The notes beneath the pieces were generated by a model. The model searched no databases. It was given only the letters and a program-made list of their open reading frames with translations, and had not been told where the DNA came from. The position numbers were made by a program, and so were the translations under genes. DNA of 39,568 bases from an uncultured Hungatella sp. (GTDB lineage Bacteria; Bacillota; Clostridia; Lachnospirales; Lachnospiraceae): positions 1-39,568 of the forward strand of contig CAMUJH010000037.1 in assembly GCA_947089145.1 (NCBI GenBank). Direction: 5' to 3'. Below are positions 7,362 through 20,791 of the stretch, one piece after another. Each line of letters starts with the position of its first letter. Within the stretch, counting starts at the first letter, position 1.

Positions 7362-8666
7362 TCAGAGAAGTCCCAGCACTCCAGGCAGCCACATGGAGAA
7401 CGCCGGCACAAAAGTTACCAGCAGAAGCCCTGCCACAATCGCCAGAAAATACGGGATCAGCTGTTTAATCACATCTTCCACCGGCAGATGGGCCACGCTG
7501 CACCCTACAAAGAGAACGCTCCCCACCGGCGGAGTGATGGTTCCGATAGCCAGGTTCATAATCATCATAATTCCAAACTGAATGGAATCCATTCCCAGGC
7601 TTTTGACCACCGGAAGAAAAATCGGAGTGAAAATCAGAAGAGCCGGGGCCATATCCATAAAGGTTCCTACAATCAGCAGAATCAGGTTGATAATCAGCAA
7701 AATCACAATCTTGTTATCCGAAATGCCCAGCAGCAGATTGCTGATAGCCTGGGGCAGCCCGGTAAAGGAAAGCACGAAGCTGAGAACCGTGGATGCGCCG
7801 ATAATCAGCATAACAATGGTGGTCATCACTGCCGTGTTGGTCAGAATCCCCATAATTTCCGAGATCTTAATGCTGCGGTAAACAAACACTGCCAGTATGA
7901 AGGCATACACCACTGCCACGCCGGAAGCCTCTGTTGCCGTAAACTTTCCGGATAAGATTCCGCCGATGATAATCACGATTAAAAACAGGCTGGGCACTGC
8001 ATCCCACACGGTTTTCATAGCCGCAGCCGCCGTGATTTTTTCGCCCTTTATTACATATCCTTTCTTTTTTCCGTACAGGAAAGCCACCAGCATGCAAAGC
8101 CCGGCCCATAAAAGCCCTGGAATCCATCCTGCCATCAAAAGGGCTGCTACTGAAATTCCTCCGGCTGCTGTAGAATAGATGATGGGCGCCGTAGTAGGCG
8201 GAATCAGCTGCCCTACGGGAGCCGAAGCGATATTAACTGCCGCTGAAAAGGTTTCGTCATATCCGTGCTCTTTCTCCAGCGGGTTCATGACCCCTCCAAT
8301 AGCTGTTGCGGCTGCGATGCCTGAGCCTGAGATCGATCCGAACATGGCGTTTCCCGCAATATTGGTCAGAGCCAGGGAGCCAGGCACCCGCCCCATAATC
8401 AGCAGCGCCAGATTTACCAGGCGCCTGGCAATCCCGCCGCTGCTCATCAGCAGGCCTGCCAGAATAAAAAACGGAACCGCAAGCAGTGAGAAGCTGTCAA
8501 TTCCTCCCACCAGCTTCTGAGCTGATATAAACATCCCAAAGCCTGGGCTTAAGAACATGATAATGGTTACCAATGCTGCGCTGATAATGCTGAATGACAC
8601 CGGAACCCCGTAAGCCAGCAGCATGAAAAACACCAGAATTAAAACAATTGCGGCCTGAATCTGCAT
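7362..8666 (-). CDS. dctM: TRAP transporter large permease subunit (DctM)
   Basis: 434-residue, very hydrophobic protein with about eleven or twelve membrane segments, the ion-coupled channel subunit of a TRAP transporter. Family signatures include PFFILAGLLMSSGGIARRLV near the N-terminus, MFGSISGSGIAAATAIGG, and TPPVGSVLFVGCSVA near the C-terminus. Its ATG immediately follows the dctQ stop (TAAATG), so the two genes are translationally coupled. Together with DctQ and DctP it forms a sodium-driven importer of organic acids. The neighbouring pectin enzymes suggest a uronate or unsaturated uronide as substrate, but that is inference. The gene ends 19 bases from the convergent AraC gene. Confidence 0.95.
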   Translation of the reverse strand: MQIQAAIVLILVFFMLLAYGVPVSFSIISAALVTIIMFLSPGFGMFISAQKLVGGIDSFSLLAVPFFILAGLLMSSGGIARRLVNLALLIMGRVPGSLALTNIAGNAMFGSISGSGIAAATAIGGVMNPLEKEHGYDETFSAAVNIASAPVGQLIPPTTAPIIYSTAAGGISVAALLMAGWIPGLLWAGLCMLVAFLYGKKKGYVIKGEKITAAAAMKTVWDAVPSLFLIVIIIGGILSGKFTATEASGVAVVYAFILAVFVYRSIKISEIMGILTNTAVMTTIVMLIIGASTVLSFVLSFTGLPQAISNLLLGISDNKIVILLIINLILLIVGTFMDMAPALLIFTPIFLPVVKSLGMDSIQFGIMMIMNLAIGTITPPVGSVLFVGCSVAHLPVEDVIKQLIPYFLAIVAGLLLVTFVPAFSMWLPGVLGLL

Positions 8667-9170
8667 TTATTTTCCCTCCTTGTGTGCGTTGTCTCCTGAT
8701 GAGGCCAGTCCTCTCCACTCTTTAAGAAAACCGCTCAGACGGTTGATACAGTAAAATACCATCATCACGCCGCCAACCGGCACGCAGGCATAGTACAGCT
8801 CCATAGGCATGTGCAGGGCCGGGGATATCTGTCCGGAAGAATTCATGGTCACTGTCCAGCCTCCTATGATCATGACAAAAACGCTCAGGAACAAAATCAG
8901 AATCTCTATTCCCATTTTTGTCATCAGCAGTCCTTTTTTGTCAAAAGACCGGGTAATCAGATTAATTGACAGATGGCTGTCTTTTCCATAGGCATAAGGC
9001 ACGCCCAGCATTGTCATCCAGATCAAAAGATACCGCAGCAGCTCCTCTGTAAACTTGCTGGGGCTGTTTAAGACAAAGCGGGTAAATACCTGCCAGAAGC
9101 ATCCCACTACCATTACTGCCACCACACACCCCAGAAAAACTTCCAGAATTCTATTTAAGATTTTCATCAT
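8667..9170 (-). CDS. dctQ: TRAP transporter small permease subunit (DctQ)
   Basis: 167-residue membrane protein with four predicted transmembrane helices, the small TRAP permease. Typical features are FTRFVLNSPSKFTEELLRYLLIW after helix one and LGVPYAYGKDSHLSINLI in the second helix region. Two adjacent ATGs (9170 and 9167) follow AAGGAGG; the inner one has the better spacing, so the protein may be one residue shorter. The Shine-Dalgarno site overlaps the end of dctP. The subunit pairs with DctM in the membrane. Confidence 0.93.
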   Translation of the reverse strand: MMKILNRILEVFLGCVVAVMVVGCFWQVFTRFVLNSPSKFTEELLRYLLIWMTMLGVPYAYGKDSHLSINLITRSFDKKGLLMTKMGIEILILFLSVFVMIIGGWTVTMNSSGQISPALHMPMELYYACVPVGGVMMVFYCINRLSGFLKEWRGLASSGDNAHKEGK

Positions 9171-9178
9171 TCCCCTCC

Positions 9179-10201
9179 TTACCGCGCATATTTCTGAATA
9201 TCGTCATACAGAGCCTTGTAGCTTTCCCCTTTGGCGCAGTAGTTCTCATGAACCGGCTGCACTGCCTGGATGAACGCCGTCTTGTCAATATCCCGGTAAA
9301 TGGTAACGCCGTGGCCTTCTGCCTCCTCAATGGCCTCCGCCATCATACCGTTATACAGGCTCTTGAAATTCTCGTTGGCCTTCTGAATGGAATCCACCAG
9401 CAGCTTTTTCTGCCCGTCCGTCATCCGGTTCCAGGTCCTGGTGCTGACGATGTAAATGTCCGGCGAATACTGATGCTCCGTGTATGTATAAGCTTTAACC
9501 AGATCCTGGTGCCCGTCTACTGTCAGCACCAGCTCCGTGTTCTCTGCCCCGTCTACGATCCCCTGCTGCAGGGCGCTGTATGTCTCCCCTCCTGCCATGG
9601 GCACCGGGGAGCCGCCCATCAGTTCGATCATATCCATGGAGGTAGAACTGGGCATGGATCGGATCTTCTTGCCTTTGAGAACCGACGGCTCCGTACACGC
9701 CACGTTTTCTTTCAGATAAAAGTTTCGGGAACCATTGGCATAATAGCCGATGGCAATATATCCGTCCTCCTCTGTGGACTGAAACAGTTCCTTCACCTTT
9801 TCACTGTTCTCGCAGGCCGCATAGTAATGTTCCTGGCTCTGGAACAGGTAGGGCACCGCAAAAATCGAGTACTCATCCTTAAACTGGCCCAGCGTATTGG
9901 AGCTGACCTTTGCCATGTCTAAGACCCCTGCCTGCACCATCTCAATCTCTTCCTTTTCCGTCCCCAGCACGCCGCTGGCATAGATGGAAACCTTCAGCTT
10001 CTGGCTGGGGTCCTCTTCCACAAACTCCGAGATCTTGGCGATCGATCCGGCAATTTCCGATCCGGCTGCCTGGTTATGTGCCAGACGAAGTTCCAGCACA
10101 TCTCCAGACGAAGTCCCTGCTACTGAGAAAAAAGTGGCTCCTACTGTCACAACAGCGGCTACGCTGGCAGCAATTCCCAGCGTTTTTTTCCATTGCTTCA
10201 T
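9179..10201 (-). CDS. dctP: TRAP transporter substrate-binding protein (DctP)
   Basis: About 340 residues. I chose the ATG at 10201 because GGAG lies ten bases upstream; the upstream ATGs at 10237 and 10210 are poorly placed. An N-terminal signal segment (KKTLGIAASVAAVVTVGATFF) exports the protein. The mature part has the DctP pattern: LRLAHNQAAGSEI, the ligand-arginine region GKKIRSMPS, and GGETYSALQQGIVDGAEN. It captures the substrate outside and passes it to DctQM. The arginine in KIRSM normally clamps a carboxylate, which fits a uronate ligand. It is the first gene of dctPQM, transcribed from the AT-rich region at 10202-10592. Confidence 0.93.
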   Translation of the reverse strand: MKQWKKTLGIAASVAAVVTVGATFFSVAGTSSGDVLELRLAHNQAAGSEIAGSIAKISEFVEEDPSQKLKVSIYASGVLGTEKEEIEMVQAGVLDMAKVSSNTLGQFKDEYSIFAVPYLFQSQEHYYAACENSEKVKELFQSTEEDGYIAIGYYANGSRNFYLKENVACTEPSVLKGKKIRSMPSSTSMDMIELMGGSPVPMAGGETYSALQQGIVDGAENTELVLTVDGHQDLVKAYTYTEHQYSPDIYIVSTRTWNRMTDGQKKLLVDSIQKANENFKSLYNGMMAEAIEEAEGHGVTIYRDIDKTAFIQAVQPVHENYCAKGESYKALYDDIQKYAR

Positions 10202-10592
10202 ACCTTTCATTCTCCTTTTCTTTTGTCCATCTCTCATAAAAAATCCGGAATTTTATAAAAAATGCACAAATTTTTACTTTGTTTCTTGATATATACCGGT
10301 ATTTTTAATCATTTTTAATATACCATATTCAAAAAAACAAATGTTTCCTTGAATTGACACAAATTTATCATTTTCAAATTATATTGTACTCATTATCTTT
10401 GATTTTTTGTAGAATTCCCATTGACAGTCCCTGCTTTCTCTGACGTCCCTGGGCAATATGAAACAAAAGAAAACCGGCTGTCCCCTGTTTTTCCCCGTTT
10501 TTTACAAAAATCTTTGGAAATCAGCGCCCAACTGCTTGACAGTATCATAAAGTACACACTATGATTAAAAAAATGGCAAGGACGTGTATGGA
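10202..10592. other. AT-rich divergent intergenic region between dctP and the SPL-family gene
   Basis: This gap of nearly 400 bases is strongly AT-rich from about 10240 to 10430 and holds no convincing gene. On the minus strand, TGG followed by TATATT near 10310-10325 resembles an extended -10 for dctP without a good -35. A plus-strand TTGACA near 10355 has a TATATT 20 bases on, which is too far for a confident promoter. The good plus-strand promoter at 10536-10565 is listed separately. Confidence 0.5.
10536..10565 (+). promoter_or_regulatory. Sigma-70 promoter of the SPL-family radical SAM gene
   Basis: A perfect TTGACA at 10536-10541 and TATGAT at 10560-10565 are separated by 18 bases. The start codon at 10593 lies only about 20 bases from the predicted transcription start, so the leader is very short. 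Confidence 0.7.
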
Positions 10593-11517: not shown

Positions 11518-12429
11518 TCAGAGACAGGCTGAAACCGCCGCAAGCCACTGCTCCCGGAATTCCACGATGGTTTTGTAACGTTTGCTTCTGTCTGTGCTGG
11601 CGGCTTTTGCCGCAGCCCTGTAGGCGGCCTCATTCAGCTCCCAGCCAGCATAGGAACATGGGACAAACCGGTTTAGCCGGTATCTGTCCTTTACCTCTTT
11701 TGCCGAAAAGCTGCCGAAAAACTCAAAGATCAGTGCTCCCAGCGTAAATATATTGGTCTGCTCATCTATGGGACTGCCCTTTTCATACTCCTCAGGCGCT
11801 TTCAGGCGTTTCGTCCCGTACCATTCCATGCCCATGTCATTGATAACAGGCGCCTTTCGAAACAGATCAATATCGCAAAGCATGGTCTGATGTGTTTCAA
11901 AATCATACAGAATGCTTCCGTCGTAGAAATCAACGGCAACATATCCCCTTCGATGTACCAGCTCCAAAAAAGAAAAGAGAACATTTGCCACGGCTGCCCT
12001 CCTGCAGGCCGGCAATTTGCGGAACTTCTCTTTGGGGCTTATGAGAGAGCTGTTTGCCTTGTATGTTTCAAAATTCCAATGATCAAATAGGCACTGGCCG
12101 CTGAGCCATGAAAAAACCACCACGTAAAAAGGCCCATGGTCATATGCTTCGATGACTCTGACCAAATTGGGATGTTCTAAGTCGCGATACAGGGAAACCG
12201 CCTGTTTCAGTATTTCAACAGATTCCCGGGGGCTTACCTCCGCCTCCATGGTATTGACGCCTGCGATTTTGCAGAAATATTTCTTCTCTTTGTCCTCCAT
12301 GCCGATCCCAATGCACCCGGAACCGGTTTCATCAACACACCAAAAGGCTTTTCCGTACTTCTTCAGCCAGCTAAAATCCTGATATTCTTTTAATCGGATG
12401 GAAACGCCATCCAGCTTAATGACTTCCAT
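11518..12429 (-). CDS. Divergent Hanks-type protein-kinase-like protein in the ABC operon
   Basis: 303-residue protein with a recognisable but eroded eukaryotic-type kinase fold. Visible elements are FCKIAG (Lys54, the ATP lysine), HPNLVRVIEAYDHG, the catalytic loop VAVDFYDGSIL (Asp167 kept, HRD histidine and arginine lost, expected Asn replaced by Ser172), CDIDLF in place of DFG (Asp186), KAPEEY (residues 210-215) and FTLGALIFEFF. No transmembrane or PASTA region follows, so it is cytosolic. It starts 15 bases after the ATPase gene, with AAAGGG upstream, and so looks like the sixth gene of the ABC operon. It may be a weak kinase, a pseudokinase or a kinase for a small substrate. Confidence 0.75.
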   Translation of the reverse strand: MEVIKLDGVSIRLKEYQDFSWLKKYGKAFWCVDETGSGCIGIGMEDKEKKYFCKIAGVNTMEAEVSPRESVEILKQAVSLYRDLEHPNLVRVIEAYDHGPFYVVVFSWLSGQCLFDHWNFETYKANSSLISPKEKFRKLPACRRAAVANVLFSFLELVHRRGYVAVDFYDGSILYDFETHQTMLCDIDLFRKAPVINDMGMEWYGTKRLKAPEEYEKGSPIDEQTNIFTLGALIFEFFGSFSAKEVKDRYRLNRFVPCSYAGWELNEAAYRAAAKAASTDRSKRYKTIVEFREQWLAAVSACL

Positions 12430-12444: not shown

Positions 12445-13068
12445 TTATGTCGAAACATCTGCTGAAATATCTGTCAGATCTATGATCCTGGCGGCGATTC
12501 TCCTGGCAAGGTGCTGGTTGTGGGTCACGGCGAGGATTCCCATGCTGCGCTTTCGGGCTTCCTCCAGAACCGCCTGCCAGATCTGGGCCTGGGTAATCAC
12601 ATCCAGCATGGTGCTGATTTCATCGCAGATAACGTAATCCGCACCGCTTAACAGAGCCCTTGCCACGCAGAAGCGCTGCAGTTCCCCGCCGGACAGTTCC
12701 CTGGGAAACCGATCCAGCCATGCCTGCTCAATGCCGAAAATGCCCAGCGCCTCCTGGGTTATGTTGCCGCTTTCTTCCAATACGTGTTTCAGCTTCCAGC
12801 GGGGATTAATGGCTTTCTCAGGGTGCTGGCAGATCAGCTGCACGGGGCAGACGCCTTTCATAGGCAGGGGCCTGCCGTCAGCCAGGATCTTACCTTTATC
12901 CGGTTTCAGATAACCGGCTAAAAGCAGGGCGAGGGTTGTCTTTCCGTAGCCGCTTGGGGCGGACACGGCCACGCATTCCCCTTTCTCCAGGGTCAGGCTG
13001 CAGTCTCTGAAAATCCATGGCTGTTTCCTGCCATAGCGAAAGTACAGATTCCTTGCTTCAAGAGCCAT
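12445..13068 (-). CDS. Peptide/nickel-type ABC transporter ATPase, second subunit (DppF/NikE-like)
   Basis: 207-residue ATP-binding subunit. The nucleotide-binding elements are complete: Walker A PSGYGKTT, Q-loop LICQHPEKAINPRW, signature LSGGELQR, Walker B YVICDEIST and H-loop AVTHN. It is short for the family (NikE about 268, OppF over 300) and lacks the C-terminal oligopeptide domain, so it is a minimal domain. Its start overlaps the upstream ATPase gene by 11 bases, with GAGG before the ATG. It acts at the inner membrane face, paired with the other ATPase. The short length and context resemble nickel/metallophore importers, but this is not decisive. Confidence 0.88.
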   Translation of the reverse strand: MALEARNLYFRYGRKQPWIFRDCSLTLEKGECVAVSAPSGYGKTTLALLLAGYLKPDKGKILADGRPLPMKGVCPVQLICQHPEKAINPRWKLKHVLEESGNITQEALGIFGIEQAWLDRFPRELSGGELQRFCVARALLSGADYVICDEISTMLDVITQAQIWQAVLEEARKRSMGILAVTHNQHLARRIAARIIDLTDISADVST

Positions 13069-13993
13069 GACAGCACCTCACTTCCCCTCCCCGGATTTCA
13101 CGTACCGGAGGGGTTTTTTCGATGCACTCTTCTGTCCTGTAAGGACATCGGGGCGCAAAGAGACAGCCCTTTGGCAGCGATCCGGCGTAGGGCTGAAAAC
13201 CCGGTATGGGCTGAAAACCGTTTTGAGGCAATGCCTTCCACAGGGCTTTGGAGTAGGGATGGCGCAGGGCCTGGGGGCCGTCTCTGAAATCAGAGGCAGG
13301 GGCGGTTTCCACTGTGGTTCCTGCATAAAATACGGCCACCCTGTCAGCAAATTCAAAGGCAAGATCAATGTCGTGGGTTATGAGAATCACCGCTTTTCCT
13401 TCATCTGCCAGCTGACGAAACATTTTCAGCGCCTCCAAAGCCTGATCAAGGCTCATGCCAGGCGTGGGCTCGTCGGCGATAATCAGCTGAGCGTCCGTAA
13501 TCAGAGCGGCGGACACCAGCACCCGCCTTGCCATGCCGCCGGAAAGCTGAAACGGATAAAGGCGTTCTGTGTTATCCGGCAGGCCGAAACGCCGAAACAG
13601 CTGTTTCCGCCTGTCCTTTGGCCGGGGCCTTTTATGTCCGTCGGCCTGGGAGCCTACTTTCATCAGAGGGTCCAGAAAAGCAACTGACTGAGGCACAAGG
13701 GCCATCTCTTTCCCCCGAAGCTGCTGCTGCCTCTTGGGCGTTAATTCCTGCCCTTTGTAGTGCATATGCCCTTTCACCTCTGCATTGCCCGGCAGAATCC
13801 CCAAAATGGCGGAGGCCAGAAGGCTTTTTCCGGAACCGGATGATCCTGCAACGGCCACGATCTCCCCGGGGCGCACAGTAAGATGCAGGTCGGAAATAAC
13901 CTGAAGCCTTGTCTGGTTCAGGCCGTGATCATACATTTTAAAAGAAACCGACAAATCGTGGATCTCCAGCAGAGTTCCTTCTTTCTGTTCCAT
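13058..13993 (-). CDS. Peptide/nickel-type ABC transporter ATPase, first subunit (DppD/NikD-like)
   Basis: 311-residue ATP-binding subunit with Walker A GSSGSGKS, Q-loop LVPQSVAFLDP, signature LSGGMARR, Walker B LIIADEPTPGMS and H-loop LITHD. The C-terminal extension carries the oligopeptide-transporter region GCLFAPRCPYRTEECIEKTP, whose cysteines form an iron-sulfur site in some family members. AGGAGG precedes the ATG, nine bases after the permease stop. It pairs with the shorter ATPase encoded next to it to drive import. The cargo (oligopeptide, nickel or metallophore) is unproven. Confidence 0.9.
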   Translation of the reverse strand: MEQKEGTLLEIHDLSVSFKMYDHGLNQTRLQVISDLHLTVRPGEIVAVAGSSGSGKSLLASAILGILPGNAEVKGHMHYKGQELTPKRQQQLRGKEMALVPQSVAFLDPLMKVGSQADGHKRPRPKDRRKQLFRRFGLPDNTERLYPFQLSGGMARRVLVSAALITDAQLIIADEPTPGMSLDQALEALKMFRQLADEGKAVILITHDIDLAFEFADRVAVFYAGTTVETAPASDFRDGPQALRHPYSKALWKALPQNGFQPIPGFQPYAGSLPKGCLFAPRCPYRTEECIEKTPPVREIRGGEVRCCHGS

Positions 13994-14002
13994 TTTTTCC
14001 TC

Positions 14003-14827
14003 CTATTCCTGGGCGCTGTAAGGGTCTGAAATGATCCGCAGATGTTCCCCCAGCCTGTCTGTCAGCAGCACCAAAAGCACCAGGGAAAGGCCGGGCAGCA
14101 CTGCGGGCCACCACATTCCGGCAGAAAGGTATCTCATGCTTTCAGCCAGTATTATGCCGATGGCCGGCTGCTCCGGAGACAGACCGAATCCGAGAAACGA
14201 CACAGAGGCTTCGTGCAGGATGGCATGGGGAAACATAAGAACCAGGCCTGTGAAAAACTGAGGCAGAAGGTGAGGCAGCATGTGATGCATCAGTATCCAT
14301 CCGCCGGATTTTCCCAGCCTGCGGGATACTGCCACATATTGCCGGCATCGAAGCTGCAGGACTTCGCCCCGGATAAGCCGGGCCAGGCTGCACCAGTGCG
14401 TGGCGGATATTCCTATAAGCAGGCCCTTTAGCCCGCGCCCCATGGCAAAGGAAATCAAAATCACCAGAATCGTATGGGGCACGCTCATGACAAGATCAAT
14501 GAGCCAGCTGACAAGGGCATCCCCCCGCCTGGAGCCGGATGCCGCTGCCATGCCTGCCAGCACGGCGATGACTGCGCTGCTGAACGACGCGGCCAGCCCT
14601 ACAGTCATGCTGACTGACAGCCCTTTAAGAGTCCTGAAAAACAGATCCCGTCCCAGGGCATCGGTTCCGAAAAAATGCTTCCGAGAAGGCGGCTGTCCTG
14701 CATCCAGAAAGCTGCCCAGAATCTTGTCATCGGGAATCACGATTCCGCAGGCATATATGCCAATCAGCGCTATTCCCATAACCACTGCAGCCGCTACGGC
14801 CTTTGTGCGGCGGTTTGGGCCTCTCAT
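14003..14827 (-). CDS. Peptide/nickel-type ABC transporter permease (DppC/NikC-like)
   Basis: 274-residue inner-membrane permease with about five or six transmembrane helices. FGTDALGRDLFFRTLKG is the classic DppC/OppC N-terminal motif, and SVSFLGFGLSPEQPAIGIIL is the conserved C-terminal loop that contacts the ATPase. The start overlaps the stop of the upstream permease by four bases (ATGA), which couples translation, with GGAGG well placed. It forms the channel together with the DppB-like subunit. Confidence 0.92.
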   Translation of the reverse strand: MRGPNRRTKAVAAAVVMGIALIGIYACGIVIPDDKILGSFLDAGQPPSRKHFFGTDALGRDLFFRTLKGLSVSMTVGLAASFSSAVIAVLAGMAAASGSRRGDALVSWLIDLVMSVPHTILVILISFAMGRGLKGLLIGISATHWCSLARLIRGEVLQLRCRQYVAVSRRLGKSGGWILMHHMLPHLLPQFFTGLVLMFPHAILHEASVSFLGFGLSPEQPAIGIILAESMRYLSAGMWWPAVLPGLSLVLLVLLTDRLGEHLRIISDPYSAQE

Positions 14828-15819
14828 GGCACCGCCTCCTGAATCTGGGGGTCAATAAGCCCGTACAGCAGATTGGCCATGGTATTGCCGACGCAGACAA
14901 ACAGGGCGGAAAACAGAGTCACCCCGAGAAGCAGCGGCACATCGGAGTTGAGCCCTGCGGCAGCCGCCGCGCTGCCAAGTCCAGGATAACTGAATACGTT
15001 TTCAGCCATGACGAAGCCGCCAAACAGCTCGGAAAAGGATGCAAACTGCAGAGTCAGAGCCGGAATCACGGTGTTTCGCAGCCCGTGACGCCAGAGGATC
15101 GTCCGGTTTTCCTCCCCTCTGGCCCGTGCAAACAGCACATAGTCGCTGTTCAAAACATCGGTCAGCTTCTGCCGGGTATGCAGCGCAATATTTGCAAAAG
15201 ACATAAAGCTCAGTGTAACGGCAGGCAGGATCAGGTGGTAAAGCTTCTGCCAGATGGTCACGTCCCTGCTGGCCACGCCTATGGGGCCGGAAAAGCCAAT
15301 GGGGAACCATTTCAGCCATACGGAAAAAACAAGAAGCATGACCAGTCCCAGCCAGAAGGTGGGGACGGAGCTTAACAGATAGCATATGCTTTTCAAAAGC
15401 TTATCCGGCCACGTATCCCGGTGCATTCCCATGACGCACCCCAGAACAAATCCTGTGACGCCTGACAATGCCCATGCGCAGAGCATCAGGGCCAGGGAAT
15501 TGGAGAAACGTTCTCTGATAATGTCTGCAACCGGCCTGCGGTACAGGGCGGATTCCCCCAGATTGCCCCGAAGAAGGTTGGAAAGCCAGTTCATATAACG
15601 CTTGGCAGGAGGCAGGTTCACTCCCCAGTACTCCTCGATCTCAGCGCGCTGTTCCGGCGAAACGGCAGTGCCCAGTCCTAGAATGTACTGCTGTACCGGA
15701 TCTATTGGCGATACGGTGACCAGCACAAATGCAACTATGCTTACTGCCAGCATAAGCGCCGCCGTCTTTGCGCCGGACAAAGCAAGAATGCGGGCAAGCC
15801 GTCTGATTATCCCTTTCAT
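14824..15819 (-). CDS. Peptide/nickel-type ABC transporter permease (DppB/NikB-like)
   Basis: 331-residue permease. I chose the ATG at 15819 because GAGG lies seven bases upstream; a GTG two codons earlier is less well spaced. The family features are present: an N-terminal helix, VSPIDPVQQYILG (the DppB periplasmic start), WLSNLLRGNLGESALYRRPV and FARARGEENRTILWRHGLRNTVIPALT, which is the cytoplasmic loop contacting the ATPase. About six helices are predicted. It starts 20 bases after the solute-binding protein gene. Confidence 0.92.
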   Translation of the reverse strand: MKGIIRRLARILALSGAKTAALMLAVSIVAFVLVTVSPIDPVQQYILGLGTAVSPEQRAEIEEYWGVNLPPAKRYMNWLSNLLRGNLGESALYRRPVADIIRERFSNSLALMLCAWALSGVTGFVLGCVMGMHRDTWPDKLLKSICYLLSSVPTFWLGLVMLLVFSVWLKWFPIGFSGPIGVASRDVTIWQKLYHLILPAVTLSFMSFANIALHTRQKLTDVLNSDYVLFARARGEENRTILWRHGLRNTVIPALTLQFASFSELFGGFVMAENVFSYPGLGSAAAAAGLNSDVPLLLGVTLFSALFVCVGNTMANLLYGLIDPQIQEAVP

Positions 15820-15839
15820 AAGCACACCTCATTCCAACA

Positions 15840-17474
15840 TTATTCTTCCCAGGCCCACCGGTGCAGGTTCTGGATCAGTGGCAGGCCGTGGCCATGGCCG
15901 TGAATCGGCTGCTCTCCGATGGAAAGCCCGTCACGGACATAGGTTACATGATCCAGGTTGACGATCCACACCCAGGGGCATTGGCCTTTCATGGCAGTGC
16001 CGGCTGCGCCGTCCCACTGGACGTTCTTCCAGCTGGCGTTGGCCTCGTCAGCCGTAAGGGCTCCCATGGCATCCTCAAGGTAGCCGTCCGTCACAGGGTT
16101 TTGGTAACCTTCCGGGTTGTAGAAGTCATCCTGGAAGGCCCCCTGGGAGCGGTACAGATAGTAGGTTTCATTGGGGATGGCAGAACCCCAGCCCATCATC
16201 ACTGCCTGGGAGAACATGCGCTGCATGATCTCGTCCCAGCTGGTGCCTTCCACATGGATTTGGATGCCAATGGCTTTTACCTGCTGGGCGGCAGCCATGG
16301 CGATGGCCTGGCGCACCGAATCGCCGGAAGGGTACAGACAGGAAAATTCCGCCTTCAGGCCGTCTTTTTCAACAATGCCGTCATTGTCATGATCCTGCCA
16401 CCCGGCGTCAGCCAGAAGCTTCTTGGCATATTCCACATCTGTTTCAATGACTACTTCCGGATTGTTCCACGGCATGCCGTCATTTTCCGAATAGGCCGGC
16501 CTGCCGAAGCCGTTCAGCACAAGATCCGCAATCTGCTGCCGGTCAATGGCATATGCGATGGCCTGCCGGATCTCAAGGCAGCAGGTTACATTATTTCCGA
16601 TGGGGGCTCCGCTCTGGGTGCTCTTCCCCTCATCCGGCTGCAGGGGAAGGGTAAAGCCCCGGTTATCGGCAGAGGCAATGGATTCTACGTGATAACCGTT
16701 AACCTTTGCAGTGCCCAGGGAGGCCGTGGAGTAGGCAACATCAACCTGTCCTGCCTGAACAGCCGCAAGGGCCGCGTCTTCAGACATGAACACAACAGTC
16801 ACATTTTTAATGGCAGGAGCGCCGCCGTAATACTCTTCATTGGCAGTAAACAGGATCTGTTCCTGAGGCCGCCACTCAACGAATTTATAGGGGCCGGAGC
16901 CTATGGGGCTTGCGCCGTAATTTTCATCATAAGCATGCATGGGGACAATGCCGATGGACGCCACTGTGTTGAGGAAAATGGACGCAGGCTTAGACAGAAC
17001 TACCCTGAGAGTTGCCTCATCCAGCGCCGTGGCGCTTTCCATATAAGTAAGATCAACGGAGCCTTGCGCCGCCTTTGCCGTTTCCAGAGTAAAGGCGGCG
17101 TCAAAGGCAGTCAGCTTTTCGCCGTCCGTAAAATAAGCGTCATCACGGATTGTAAAAGTCCAGATAAGGCCGTCAGAAGACAGATCATAGCTGACTGCCA
17201 GATCGTTTTCAAAGTCCAAATCCGCCGTATATTTTACCAGGGTGCTCTGGACAATGGGGCAGCTGCCATGCCCCCACCCTTTCGTAGGATCAAGGGTTTC
17301 CGGCTCAGATCCAATGGCAATGACGACGCTGTCCCTGGAAGCCGTCTTGCTTTCTGCAGACAAATCTTCCTCTTTTTCGCTGTCCTGCCTATTGTCCCCG
17401 CTGTTTTTGCAGGCTGACGCTGCACAGAGCATGGCAGCTGCAGCCAGGAAGACAATGATTTTTTTGATTCTCAT
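15840..17474 (-). CDS. Family 5 solute-binding lipoprotein (peptide/nickel type) with C-terminal histidine cluster
   Basis: 544-residue extracellular binding protein, first gene of the operon. The signal peptide ends in a lipobox-like ASAC (Cys22), so it should be lipid-anchored. Family 5 features include IGSEPETLDPTKG, the WTFTIRDDAYFTDGEKLTAFDAAFT segment, SPIGSGPYKFVEW and EIRQAIAYAIDRQQIADLVLNG. The C-terminus carries alternating His-Gly (His525, 527, 529) and His538, which could bind a metal, as in nickel- or metallophore-binding relatives. The ATG at 17474 has GAAAGG upstream. The ligand is unproven: a metal complex or a peptide. Expression is probably governed by the leader at 17475-17649. 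Confidence 0.9.
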   Translation of the reverse strand: MRIKKIIVFLAAAAMLCAASACKNSGDNRQDSEKEEDLSAESKTASRDSVVIAIGSEPETLDPTKGWGHGSCPIVQSTLVKYTADLDFENDLAVSYDLSSDGLIWTFTIRDDAYFTDGEKLTAFDAAFTLETAKAAQGSVDLTYMESATALDEATLRVVLSKPASIFLNTVASIGIVPMHAYDENYGASPIGSGPYKFVEWRPQEQILFTANEEYYGGAPAIKNVTVVFMSEDAALAAVQAGQVDVAYSTASLGTAKVNGYHVESIASADNRGFTLPLQPDEGKSTQSGAPIGNNVTCCLEIRQAIAYAIDRQQIADLVLNGFGRPAYSENDGMPWNNPEVVIETDVEYAKKLLADAGWQDHDNDGIVEKDGLKAEFSCLYPSGDSVRQAIAMAAAQQVKAIGIQIHVEGTSWDEIMQRMFSQAVMMGWGSAIPNETYYLYRSQGAFQDDFYNPEGYQNPVTDGYLEDAMGALTADEANASWKNVQWDGAAGTAMKGQCPWVWIVNLDHVTYVRDGLSIGEQPIHGHGHGLPLIQNLHRWAWEE

Positions 17475-17649
17475 ATAACAGGTTCCTTTCAGCTTTTAAT
17501 CAAAAATGCTTTAACAAAATAAAGCACACAAGTCCCCTTCTGAGGACATGCGTGCTTTCAAGCATACCGTTTGCAGATAATCTGCCGATTCTTCTTAAAT
17601 ACCTAACACTTTTGCATTAGCTGGGACGGCTTCGTGCCGTCTAAGTTAG
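17475..17649 (-). ncRNA. Structured 5' leader RNA of the ABC operon, possible riboswitch or attenuator
   Basis: The predicted leader is about 170 nt. In transcript order it can form: a perfect 6-bp hairpin GACGGC/GCCGTC (17641-17625), a 7-bp hairpin CTAATGC/GTGTTAG with an AAAA loop (17620-17603), a small GCAGA/TCTGC hairpin (about 17584-17572), and a long terminator stem (17558-17521) followed by a U-rich run. GGTATGC before the terminator can pair with GCAT inside its left arm, which offers a possible antiterminator. I do not recognise a known class: no T-box, SAM, TPP, cobalamin, c-di-GMP or NiCo consensus is visible. Confidence 0.5.
17511..17558 (-). terminator. Intrinsic terminator/attenuator inside the leader
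   Basis: On the minus strand AAAGCAC begins a 15-bp stem (one wobble and one mismatch) closing on GTGCTTT with a short loop, followed directly by TATTTTGTT. It lies between the promoter and the first gene, so it would stop transcription before the operon unless disrupted. Confidence 0.75.
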
Positions 17650-17678
17650 ACTATACAGGATTTCGTTCCAAAAGTCAA
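17650..17678 (-). promoter_or_regulatory. Sigma-70 promoter of the peptide/nickel-type ABC operon
   Basis: TTGACT (17673-17678) and TATAGT (17650-17655) on the minus strand, spaced 17 bases. Transcription would begin near 17643, just before the first hairpin of the leader. The promoter starts 15 bases after the stop of the upstream hypothetical gene. Confidence 0.75.
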
Positions 17679-17693: not shown

Positions 17694-18179
17694 CTATGCA
17701 GTGACATCCACAAGTTCCCCTGTCTGCTGCACCGCCTCAGCGGCTTCTCCTGACTTGTCATATGTCATATCCTGCACATCGGATGCCTGCTCCATAGAAG
17801 GCTGGCCTTCCGCCTGAATTTGAGATTTTCCCTCCTGGCTGATTTCTGCAGTATCAACATTCGGGCCATCTCCTGCACCTGACTGCTGCTCGATCTGTTC
17901 TTCCTGCTCTCTGCGCTCGTCTCTTCTGGCCTCAATCAGCTTTTCCTGCCGCAGCTTCTCCTGCTCCTTTGCCTCCTTTCCATCCAGCTTCATGCCCTGC
18001 TCTGCTTTGTCGCCGTACTCCTCAGCCTGCTGCCTGACTCCGGCTGCGTAGCCCAGCGCACGCTTCATCTTGTCAGTGTCCCCTTTGCGTTCCGCCTCCT
18101 TTGCCACATTCATGGGGGTGGATATCATGCTGATGCTGGTGCTGGCTCCAGCCAGCCCTTCCATTGTCTTTACATTCAT
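17694..18179 (-). CDS. Hypothetical Gln/Glu-rich coiled-coil-prone protein
   Basis: 161-residue protein with no function I recognise. I chose the ATG at 18179 (MNVKTMEGLAGAS) because GGAGG lies seven bases upstream; a longer frame to 18269 has no such site. The first 45 residues are mildly hydrophobic and Met/Ser-rich. Residues 50-115 are highly charged (KEAKEQEKLRQEKLIEARRDERREQ), probably a long helix or coiled coil. The rest is acidic, Gln-rich and likely disordered. There is no signal peptide, membrane segment or cysteine. It is a single gene, with the AgrC-type kinase upstream on the same strand and the ABC operon promoter just after it. Confidence 0.7.
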   Translation of the reverse strand: MNVKTMEGLAGASTSISMISTPMNVAKEAERKGDTDKMKRALGYAAGVRQQAEEYGDKAEQGMKLDGKEAKEQEKLRQEKLIEARRDERREQEEQIEQQSGAGDGPNVDTAEISQEGKSQIQAEGQPSMEQASDVQDMTYDKSGEAAEAVQQTGELVDVTA

Positions 18180-18554
18180 TGGCTGACCTCCTTTTTTGTC
18201 TATGCACTCTCGGAATCTCTCCTGCACCTGCCCTTGCGGCTGATTTTTCGTTATATGCTCATCTGACAAAATCAGGCACAGAGAGACTCTGACAGTACAT
18301 GTCTTTTAAATATTGCCCCTGCATCAGTTTTGCAGGCGGCTTCCCATCAGATGCGCTGAAGCGAAATTCATACATATTTTGATTTTATGCGCATCTGAAT
18401 ATCAGTATTATCGCCGCAGAAAAAGGGAGCTTTAGCGCAATGACTTATACGGATTCTTTGACGTCATATACGGCGGATAGACACAGAATACCGAAAGCTG
18501 CAGCTGCACTTCGGGGGATGTATGCAGGACGCAAAAAAGCATTCCGCCGCAGTC
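18180..18554. other. Intergenic region between the sensor kinase and the hypothetical gene
   Basis: I see no convincing gene here; short plus-strand frames are shadows. The notable structure is a perfect 10-bp inverted repeat, TCAGATGCGC at 18347-18356 and GCGCATCTGA at 18389-18398, with a 32-base AT-rich spacer. It has no U-tract and could be an operator or a weak processing stem. I found no strong promoter for the 18179 gene. Confidence 0.5.
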
Positions 18555-18563
18555 CTACTGCGG
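18547..18563 (-). terminator. Possible terminator overlapping the sensor kinase stop codon
   Basis: CCGCAGT/ACTGCGG form a 7-bp stem with a three-base loop that contains the stop region at 18555. On the minus strand a run of six T follows about eight bases later. The distance to the T run is longer than usual, so this is tentative. Confidence 0.4.
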
Positions 18564-19931
18564 GGATTCGCTGCTTTCACAGTGCATGGGCAGCAGAACC
18601 GATGCGGAAAAGATTTTGTTTTCTGCTTCTACGTGCACCGTCCCATTGTAATTTGCCGCTGCCGCCTTCACGCTGGCAAGTCCCAGGCCGTGCTTTTTTG
18701 GGCCCTTTTTCCTGCTTTTGAAAATTTCGCTGTCAGACGGCAGCTCTGTGCTGTTTCGCACCTCCAAAAGAAGGCACTTCTTTATTTGCCCCATATACAC
18801 CTGAATAAAGGTATCTGCCTTTTGAAGCCTTTGACAGGCCTCTATGGCATTGTCCAGGATGTTTCCTGCAATAATGCACAGATCCGTTTCTTTTATAGGC
18901 AAGTCGGCTGGCAGTTTTGCGTCACATTGCCATGTTATCCCCTTCTTTTCTGCCTGAAGCCTTTTATGGTAAAGAAGGGCGTCCATGACAAGGCAGCCTG
19001 TAACCTGCTCTCCCGTCTCCAGGCTGCCTGCCTCTGCCATATCTTTCAGGTAACGGCCTGCATGATCCCACTGTCTGTTTTTTACCAGATTTTCCAGGGC
19101 GATCATGTGATTCTTCATGTCATGCCTAAGCCGCTCCATCTGGCAATACTGCTCCTCCAGCATCCGGTAATACATAACCTGGGACTGATACTGTTCTCTG
19201 GCTTTTTCCTCCCGGTGAATCCGCTCCGTCCCAAACACAAAAAAGCCTGCCGCAGCCATGGCCACGGCAGTAAACATGCACATGGCTCCGTGACTGAAAA
19301 GCTGGTTCTCATACAGCCCGTATTTTTCCCGGCTCTGAACCATAATTCCGTTGCTGGCCGCCCAATTGGCTAAATCCGTTATGAGAGTTATACATGCCAG
19401 GGGAATGGCCAGGCTCAGGCACCAGCTTCTTTGGTTATGGGCAAAGACAGGCTCAAGAGGCTTTGCCAAGAAGCTTACAGCCGCAGTCCCCACGGCATAA
19501 GTCATAAGCAGAACAACCCGCCCTGCCCATGATCCCATAAAGGTCATGGAGCCGCTGCCTGATAGGGCATGAATGAAAATCAGCCCTCCGCAGGAAAGAA
19601 GCGATTCGGTAAAATTCCATATCAGTCCGGTCATTGTCTCCCAAATAACTCCTGCCAGCATCTTTTTCTCCTTCTCTTCTTCAAAGACTGCCAAAACCAG
19701 CACGATCAGCAGCATATGGCTGACGAGGGCGCCGAAAATATAGGGAACTCTGCCATCCGCCAGAACCGCTGCAGTAATCATGCTGCCGAAAAAAATCAGG
19801 ACGCCCAGCAGCCTTGCCGCCCACGGCTTTCCCCCTAACTGCCTTCTGAAAAAGCAGGCGGCGCACCAGGCATATGCCCCATAGCAGACGATGGCCAGGA
19901 ACCTATCCGGATCGTGTGCTGAAACTCTCAT
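18555..19931 (-). CDS. AgrC-like GHKL sensor histidine kinase
   Basis: 458-residue membrane sensor. The first 230 residues hold about six or seven hydrophobic segments. A helical linker (HREEKAREQYQSQVMYYRMLEEQYCQ) then leads to the H-box RHDMKNH, the N-box NILDNAIEACQ and the G-box KKHGLGLASVKAA. This is the HATPase_c_5/GHKL arrangement of quorum- or peptide-sensing kinases. Its ATG overlaps the stop of the response regulator by four bases (ATGA), so the two are translationally coupled. The signal is unknown; no agrD- or agrB-like gene is visible here. Confidence 0.9.
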   Translation of the reverse strand: MRVSAHDPDRFLAIVCYGAYAWCAACFFRRQLGGKPWAARLLGVLIFFGSMITAAVLADGRVPYIFGALVSHMLLIVLVLAVFEEEKEKKMLAGVIWETMTGLIWNFTESLLSCGGLIFIHALSGSGSMTFMGSWAGRVVLLMTYAVGTAAVSFLAKPLEPVFAHNQRSWCLSLAIPLACITLITDLANWAASNGIMVQSREKYGLYENQLFSHGAMCMFTAVAMAAAGFFVFGTERIHREEKAREQYQSQVMYYRMLEEQYCQMERLRHDMKNHMIALENLVKNRQWDHAGRYLKDMAEAGSLETGEQVTGCLVMDALLYHKRLQAEKKGITWQCDAKLPADLPIKETDLCIIAGNILDNAIEACQRLQKADTFIQVYMGQIKKCLLLEVRNSTELPSDSEIFKSRKKGPKKHGLGLASVKAAAANYNGTVHVEAENKIFSASVLLPMHCESSESPQ

Positions 19932-20644
19932 AAGATCCCTCCGTTCTTTCTCATATAGGAAAGGATTGCCTGACAGAATTCCTCGTATCTGCGCTTGGCC
20001 ATAAGAATCCTCTCTCCATTGTCAAGGATTGCTTCCTGCCTGTTATAGCCATCTACATGTTTTAAATTTACCATGTAGCTTTTGTGGCATCGGAAAAACC
20101 CCTTTCCCAAAAGCTGTTTTTCTAAAGTTCCAATCTGTTCATAATAGGTAATGATCTCTTTCTCTTCGTGGACGTCCACCTGCCTGCCCTTCATCTCAAA
20201 ATACAGAATGCGGTCTAAAAACAGCTTTCTCCTCTGCCCCTTTAAGCTGGCTACAATGTATTCCTGGGAGGCGCCCCTCTCCCTGTCCGCCGCCCGTTTT
20301 AAGACGCCTTTCAGCTTCTCCTGGCTTACAGGCTTCACCAGATAGTGAAAGGCTTCCACATCATAGGCGTCAAACACATATCTGCGGCTGGAAGACAAAA
20401 AGACAATCATTTTTTTATATGCAAGTTCCCGGCATCTTCTGGCAGTCTCCATGCCGTCCATGTCATCCATAAGGATGTCCAGGAAAATAAGATCAAACTG
20501 GTTCAGGCATAAAAGCAGTTCTTTTCCCCTGGAGAACTGCTTTATGGCGTACGGGATGTTCAGATCCTCCATGCATGTCTTTATTTTTGCACATATATCC
20601 AGGCATTCTAAAAGCTCATCATCACAGACTGCTATTGACAGCAT
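19928..20644 (-). CDS. LytTR-family response regulator (AgrA-like)
   Basis: 238-residue response regulator. I chose the ATG at 20644, with GAAGG eight bases upstream; a GTG three codons earlier is less likely. Residues 1-120 are the receiver domain: acidic pair CDDE near the N-terminus, phospho-acceptor Asp in LIFLDILMDDMDG, and a conserved Lys in YLVKPVSQEKL. The C-terminal half is a LytTR DNA-binding domain (ILYFEMKGRQVDVH, GFFRCHKSYMVNLKHV). It is the first gene of the pair with the kinase and would regulate target promoters after phosphorylation. The targets are unknown. Confidence 0.92.
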   Translation of the reverse strand: MLSIAVCDDELLECLDICAKIKTCMEDLNIPYAIKQFSRGKELLLCLNQFDLIFLDILMDDMDGMETARRCRELAYKKMIVFLSSSRRYVFDAYDVEAFHYLVKPVSQEKLKGVLKRAADRERGASQEYIVASLKGQRRKLFLDRILYFEMKGRQVDVHEEKEIITYYEQIGTLEKQLLGKGFFRCHKSYMVNLKHVDGYNRQEAILDNGERILMAKRRYEEFCQAILSYMRKNGGIL

Positions 20645-20791
20645 AAGTCTCACCTTCTTTCTTTTTCAGTATCCCACATGCCTGATTTTTATATCGGCAA
20701 AAGGCCGGACAGGTTCAGTTTCTGCTGTAAACGGATGAAAATATGTCATAAACGTTGCCGCTTCCACACTAATTTATGTCCTCTCTATCAG

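Follow-up and report, generated by a model that had tools for sequence, protein, structure and literature searches.

A conserved RNA leader with two mutually exclusive folds upstream of nickel-related genes in Clostridia, with DUF3842 as a possible partner

Lactate racemase depends on a cofactor, the nickel-pincer nucleotide, which is made by the products of larE, larB and larC. In Lactobacillus, these cofactor genes are controlled by LarR, a DNA-binding activator of the lar operon. At the RNA level, the NiCo riboswitch is tied to nickel or cobalt genes and controls export, and leaders of the LicT/BglG type carry a protein-held antiterminator hairpin that overlaps a terminator. A collection of 224 candidate RNAs was reportedly assembled in a 2017 study. 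Dual-hairpin leaders, the targets of the ANTAR proteins EutV, NasR and AmiR, have six-base loops with A at position 1 and G at position 4, according to passages of PMC3369931. In the open-access literature, we found no report of RNA control of lar or nickel-import genes, no paper on DUF3842 by name and no paper joining the pincer nucleotide with a riboswitch. In PMC5640608 and PMC6311696, the passages on lactate racemase and riboswitches are unconnected, and the main texts of two large RNA-discovery papers do not mention nickel, larB, oligopeptide or racemase. Since this survey covered open-access main texts, an unnamed motif may be present in a supplement. Here, we describe a leader that is a conserved RNA family, widespread among relatives and matching no Rfam family. 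Nearly all genomes in which it occurs also encode DUF3842, a small uncharacterised protein that may be its partner.

The window, a 39,568-nucleotide contig from an uncultured Hungatella sp., carries the leader on its minus strand (17678-17475), between the end of an open reading frame at 17694 and the start of a binding-protein gene at 17474. The parts of the leader and of its operon described below are on the same strand. The leader consists of a promoter, then hairpins, then an intrinsic terminator. The promoter TTGACT-17-TATAGT of the original prediction is found as a –35 box at 17673-17678 and, after a 17-base spacer, a –10 box at 17650-17655, both read from the sequence. The three hairpins previously described are all present. 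H1 (17625-17641, GACGGC-ACGAA-GCCGUC) has a five-base loop ending in GAA, and H2 (17603-17620, CUAAUGC-AAAA-GUGUUAG) has the loop AAAA in the window. The third hairpin (17573-17585) is not conserved, the region around it differing among relatives in both length and sequence. As predicted, a terminator stem-loop (17521-17558) with a U-rich tail (17513-17520) precedes the first gene. A helix alternative to this terminator had also been proposed and is supported; however, the conserved pairing is not GGTATGC with GCAT but UAUGCU with AGCACG. This antiterminator helix, P4 (17551-17566, UAUGCU-UGAA-AGCACG), uses the left arm of the terminator as its own right arm, so that P4 and the terminator are mutually exclusive. 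The tip of the terminator is the hairpin P5a (17532-17547, GUCCUC-AGAA-GGGGAC). In the window, P4 has one A-C mismatch, and its loop is a base short by comparison with most relatives. A putative leader peptide (ATG-CAA-AAG-TGT-TAG, a frame in H2 of the window) was discarded, its ATG being missing from many relatives.

The folding energy of the window leader is -57.3 kcal/mol (z = -4.87), a value reached by none of 200 shuffled sequences. The terminator fold has a calculated energy of -40.5 kcal/mol as compared to -24.7 kcal/mol for the antiterminator fold. The terminator fold being the more stable in the window, termination would be the default and antitermination would need help to hold P4 and the terminator tip.

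The genes behind the leader agree, by family matches, with the peptide/nickel-type ABC operon originally predicted. The first gene (15840-17474) encodes a family 5 solute-binding protein (SBP_bac_5, NikA/Opp-like, NCBIfam matches below cut-off) with the C-terminus HGHGHG, the His-Gly cluster that had been noticed. It is followed by two ABC permeases (Opp/Nik B type, 14824-15825, and Opp/Nik C type, 14003-14827) and two ABC ATPases (Opp/Nik D type with an oligo_HPY tail, 13058-13993, and Nik E type, 12445-13068). No lar gene lies between the leader and the binding-protein gene. Directly 3′ of the ATPases, a protein-kinase-like gene is found (Pfam Pkinase, 11518-12429, minus strand), followed by the TRAP transporter genes DctP, DctQ and DctM (7362-10237). 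Upstream of the leader, a Glu/Gln-rich open reading frame with no Pfam or NCBIfam match (17694-18269, minus strand) occupies the position of DUF3842 in many relatives, and a histidine kinase and a response regulator are encoded at 18555-20653 on the same strand, with weak LytR/AgrA-type matches below cut-off.

The families of Rfam 15, riboswitches included, gave no match at gathering score in the window or in the loci of 10 relatives, in line with the earlier statement that no known riboswitch class was recognised. When the window leader and the Lutispora thermophila leader (L027) were scanned permissively, all matches were well below the gathering scores of their families. A dispersed repeat, named beforehand as an alternative, was also rejected, since a second copy was not found in the leader's own genome: the best non-self DNA match was 32 bases long (E = 0.0099) and the covariance model R1 gave only a 22-bit match (E = 0.38).

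Relatives of the leader were collected starting from 80 loci in which a relative of the binding protein is encoded. BLASTN with the window leader matched 24 of them at E ≤ 1 and 22 at E ≤ 0.05; 14 of these 22 matches do not adjoin the binding-protein gene but are found some 3 kb upstream of it. In the matched loci with a distant leader, the first genes are larE, larB and larC. All three pass the NCBIfam cut-offs in the Lutispora locus. With lar genes between leader and binding protein in relatives, the window looks like a shortened version of this arrangement. A regular-expression search for leaders returned many chance matches and was replaced by R1, built from 25 leaders, 24 of which came from binding-protein loci. 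R1 detected a leader in 34 of the 80 loci, partial in L043 and weak in L102 (E = 0.0016), where the wider model R2 gave a firmer match. A scan of the order with R1 gave 22 of 392 genomes at E ≤ 0.01, with 12 loci (L108-L119) judged real besides the window's own, two of them (L109 and L110) being copies of loci already in the sample. At E ≤ 0.001, R2 found leaders in 27 of 391 genomes of the class and in 38 of 397 genomes of the family. Many of the leaders found by R2 directly precede lar genes, an information absent from the model.

Two alignments were used for the analysis of covariation. A1, made with MAFFT, contains 25 of 28 leaders (L043, L058 and L061 left out). A4 contains 92 leaders, the window's and 91 relatives', and was fitted to the structure. 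L043, which is devoid of H2, was left out of alignments A2 and A4. L115 and L120-L130 were left out of A2, of A4 and of the counts of neighbours in 58 leaders presented below. L115 is a good leader (63.7 bits) between DUF3842 and ECF S-component genes; its inclusion would bring the upstream DUF3842 count to 39/59 and the ECF S-component count to 16. L120-L130 were judged chance matches, two lying at tRNA genes and the majority at ordinary terminators; L129 reads L109 from the opposite strand, and several of these rejected matches score 27-39 bits with R2. From the R2 stage on, the terminator-only L153 and L156 were omitted, as well as L109, L110, L131 and L157, copies of L055, L038, L027 and L029, respectively. 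Eight matches of the family scan had no locus of their own: one (G198) corresponds to L152 and the seven others were rescored later, outside A4.

Covariation was found across homologous leaders. In A1, 20 of 29 pairs show two-sided changes and 93.0% of cells are paired, with none of 500 shuffles as high. The pairs with two-sided changes include every pair of H1 and of H2 as well as 7 of the 16 in the terminator; the pairing signal was lost when the partner was shifted by 1 to 3 columns. RNAalifold, used unaided, returned the same three helices, with two-sided changes in 17 of 24 pairs. In A4, 28 of 29 pairs show such changes, including 6/6 in P5a; the values of 6/6 for H1 and 7/7 for H2 hold in both alignments. 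For P4, covariation in the narrow 25-leader alignment did not exceed chance. A4 was built without fitting to P4; on it, 90.1% of cells are paired as compared to 81.4% after shuffling, and 50 cells carry two-sided changes as compared to 19. The number of P4 pairs with two-sided changes (4/6) is not unusual, being reached by 70 of 500 shuffles. Sliding the partner by +2 left 49 two-sided cells, but only 51% paired. P4 with one A-C mismatch is found in the canonical group (29/92).

The columns common to both folds were also examined. At columns 222/236/279, the combinations G-C-G (54 leaders), A-U-A (22) and A-U-G (8) are found, and both alternative pairs are intact in 86 of 89 leaders. For the other five shared columns, both pairs are kept in 66/84, 56/88, 85/92, 88/89 and 85/91 leaders. 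A switch would be expected to show such joint change, a terminator alone would not; these triple compensatory changes support both exclusive folds. The leader thus has the hallmarks of terminator/antiterminator attenuation: two conserved helices that exclude each other, one being an intrinsic terminator. No conserved junction or internal loop was seen: the conserved letters are those of the hairpin loops and closing pairs, and the stems vary freely. A promoter-like sequence is present directly 5′ of 63 of 90 aligned leaders as compared to 8/90 and 11/90 in two control stretches, 2 of the 92 leaders having too little upstream sequence to be counted.

Examination of the loops revealed a repeated module, consisting of a hairpin with a five-base NNGAA loop followed by a hairpin with a four-base NGAA loop. 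H1 and H2 form copy 1; P4 and the terminator tip form copy 2. With a scan for hairpins of at least 4 pairs and a loop ending in GAA, 3.28 hairpins per leader were counted in the 92 leaders as compared to 0.16 in mononucleotide shuffles, and 76 leaders have at least 3 of them. Five-base loops are found in H1 (70/92) and P4 (76/92), four-base loops in H2 (85/92) and the terminator tip (79/92), and 5-4-5-4 is the commonest order of loop sizes (19/92). The loop ends in GAA in 85/92 leaders for H1, 80/92 for H2, 84/92 for P4 and 72/92 for the terminator tip. The window is typical, apart from its H2 loop AAAA and the P4 loop one base short. This pattern indicates that a two-hairpin module occurs twice in the leader, its second copy being built into the terminator. 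In addition, a shorter leader-like stretch downstream of DUF3842 (L210, 1978-2051) seemingly has the second module only; the gene after it resembles a methyltransferase. Overall, the leader observation of the original prediction is confirmed, and the finding goes beyond what was described.

We then considered the genes located within about 1.5 kb downstream of 58 leaders from the genome scans, with identities taken from single representatives. A lar gene is found in 20 of the 58; it may stand by itself, follow a pair of genes for small membrane proteins, or accompany CbiM or FecCD transporters. Of the other leaders, 15 are followed by an ECF S-component (9 with a kinase in reach), 10 by a family 5 binding protein, 7 by the small membrane pair with no lar gene, 2 by FecCD with an ATPase and 1 by a methyltransferase with a permease; 3 have no assigned neighbour. 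Nickel is the simplest common thread of these genes, and cobalt or corrinoid uptake is a possible alternative for the CbiM, FecCD and methyltransferase loci. The small membrane pair (L111, 1055-1471 and 723-1040, minus strand; the first protein begins MACFLVPAAEAV in L111) recurs in L114, L118, L132, L134, L136, L137, L149, L155, L162, L170, L175 and L180. It stands directly after the leader, often preceding lar genes, had no Pfam match in the loci scanned, and is a candidate new nickel transporter. The ECF S-component gene, under the same type of leader (L116, 1657-2780, plus strand), is also present in L115, L140-L144, L146-L148, L150-L152, L154, L173 and L177. The gene after it often encodes a protein resembling uridine kinase, which in some cases carries an extra domain at its N-terminus.

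On the upstream side, and whatever follows downstream, 38 of the 58 leaders directly adjoin the end of a DUF3842 gene on the same strand. This gene is on the other strand in 1 further case and absent within about 1.5 kb (188 bases for L134) in 19. Among binding-protein loci, DUF3842 is upstream in 18 of 31 loci having a leader and at least 600 bases upstream, as compared to 2 of 46 loci counted as leaderless. Of the 18, 17 were identified by script and L105, with a 10-base overlap, was added; they include L027 (2713-2868), in which an intact leader and a lar-nik operon stand beside a mere decayed remnant of DUF3842. The leaderless group includes L064, whose leader is truncated at the edge of the locus, and L101, one of the two with DUF3842, where a weak leader lies beside it (31.5 bits, R2).

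The association extends to whole genomes. Among 397 genomes of the family, 94 have DUF3842, 38 have the leader and 37 have both (p = 3.4e-25, a value which, like the next one, treats species as independent and ignores relatedness). The sole leader genome without DUF3842 has the weakest leader match. When the 23 adjacent cases are set aside, DUF3842 is present in 14 of 15 leader genomes as compared to 2.8 expected (p = 3.3e-10), as would be expected of a trans-acting partner. In 3 of these 14 genomes (G041, G060 and G192), DUF3842 is on the other strand within about 2 kb, and in G352 it is about 3 kb upstream. The window's genome, in an assembly 87% complete, has one DUF3842 found, on another contig and 50% identical to a leader-linked reference. 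Conversely, 26 of 92 DUF3842 loci in the family sample have a model-positive leader adjoining. The other 66 show a mean of 0.26 GAA hairpins downstream versus 0.15 upstream, indicating that most sampled DUF3842 genes are without a detectable leader beside them; some of these loci (e.g. L280, L306 and L275) resemble diverged leaders. A sensitive search of 24 DUF3842 genomes without leader gave matches at E ≤ 1 in 12, only 2 being plausible. This search was not exhaustive, since it missed a 31.6-bit candidate beside DUF3842 in G051. AlphaFold confidently predicts DUF3842 to be a small Rossmann-like protein of NAD type (pLDDT 86, pTM 0.84), which is not among the folds known to bind RNA. Foldseek/VIA-align matches of the model reflect the generic Rossmann arrangement, and no RNA-binding relative stood out among them. 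The model suggests that DUF3842 may bind a nucleotide, and such binding might suit the sensing of a nucleotide cofactor.

From these data, we infer that DUF3842 binds the leader, and likewise the direction of control and the signal. As we picture it, the long terminator would form by default and transcription would stop before the operon. In its active state, the protein would grip P4 and the terminator tip, the tandem pair of GAA-loop hairpins that makes up copy 2, and would probably bind H1 and H2 of copy 1 in the same way. P4, once held, would occupy the left arm of the terminator, the lower terminator stem would be unable to close, and the nickel or cofactor operon would be transcribed. 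The signal would probably be the status of nickel or of the nickel-pincer nucleotide, low nickel or low cofactor being a natural guess for the on-condition. We give an even chance to this reading, in which an RNA-binding protein acting in trans, most likely DUF3842, controls an attenuation leader, with a probable nickel or pincer-nucleotide signal. Against it stand the many DUF3842 genes with no leader beside them, the distant DUF3842 of the window's genome on another contig, and the modelled fold. Somewhat more tentatively, we propose as a working hypothesis that DUF3842 is the founding family of RNA antiterminators with a nucleotide-binding fold, which would read tandem GAA-loop hairpins and report nickel or pincer-nucleotide status.

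The metal- or metabolite-sensing RNA that had been guessed from the sequence has gained a link to nickel genes in relatives; the RNA itself as the sensor is less supported, because conserved hairpin loops on varying stems resemble protein binding and because DUF3842 accompanies the leader. The earlier interpretation is thus partly supported overall, and none of the three findings named in advance as refuting it, a confident Rfam match, absence of covariation or a dispersed repeat, was made. In such a riboswitch, the RNA alone would bind nickel, the pincer nucleotide or a precursor and so choose between P4 and the terminator, and DUF3842 would be a co-travelling protein of nickel metabolism. 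The controlled genes fit a nickel or cofactor ligand, two exclusive folds are present, and the two module copies could be a tandem aptamer. However, the confinement of conservation to the loops and closing pairs of hairpins goes against an aptamer, and the DUF3842 association, which holds also when the gene is not adjacent, would need a separate explanation. We consider a riboswitch rather unlikely. With conservation confined to the loops and stems and with DUF3842 as a partner, a protein-bound antiterminator is favoured over a metabolite aptamer.

The protein could instead be another RNA-binding protein or a transcription-factor paralogue holding the GAA hairpins, in which case DUF3842 could be part of nickel metabolism, as an enzyme or chaperone kept with the regulon. 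The protein-type loop conservation would fit, many DUF3842 genes have no leader, and the modelled Rossmann fold might suggest an enzyme or a nucleotide binder. Against this, no further leader-linked gene was noticed incidentally, an argument of little weight. We hold this possibility to be less probable still than a riboswitch. Finally, a constitutive attenuator, in which the terminator would merely trim expression without switching, would agree with the clearly more stable terminator fold of the window. Yet P4 is kept, and its columns covary with those of the terminator, though termination does not require P4; moreover, the upstream H1-H2 copy is equally conserved. Such an attenuator appears highly improbable. 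Our order of preference is thus a protein, with DUF3842 ahead of any other, then a riboswitch and, last, a plain attenuator.

The present work provides a defined RNA element and a predicted switch through which Clostridia may control nickel import and the synthesis of the nickel-pincer cofactor, and it names a candidate partner. If the reading of DUF3842 as an antiterminator is true, it would be a new protein-RNA regulatory system and, to our knowledge, the first RNA-level control of nickel-pincer cofactor genes. It would also give DUF3842 a function, and would assign several unnamed transporters, such as the small membrane pair and the ECF S-component accompanied by a kinase, to a regulon for nickel or the cofactor.

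The leader can finally be compared with the known systems. LarR and the leader are both found at nickel-pincer cofactor genes, LarR acting on DNA whereas control here would be exerted by an RNA leader. Like the NiCo riboswitch, the leader is an RNA tied to nickel or cobalt genes; it precedes uptake and cofactor-synthesis genes instead of controlling export, and no NiCo match was obtained in the Rfam scans of the window and of relatives' loci. The protein-held hairpin overlapping a terminator that is proposed here recalls LicT/BglG leaders. The Rfam model bglG-cis-reg scored 15.1 bits in L027, for a cut-off of 80, and was not among the window's matches. A dual-hairpin leader of the ANTAR type was rejected on its loop rule: hairpins with a six-base A1/G4 loop number 0.62 per leader as compared to 0.64 in mononucleotide shuffles, and at least 2 hairpins obeying this rule are found in 13/92 leaders as compared to 14% of shuffles. 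The loops are NNGAA and NGAA, in two module copies, unlike those of ANTAR leaders. According to PMC3369931, ANTAR leaders likewise carry, ahead of a terminator, two small hairpins in tandem, separated by a few bases, whose loops have conserved letters, and protein binding prevents termination, the same working as proposed here. As in leaders of that type, a hairpin, here P4, excludes the intrinsic terminator. Therefore, apart from their different loop rule, ANTAR dual-hairpin leaders would be the closest known analogue in the way the leader is proposed to work.
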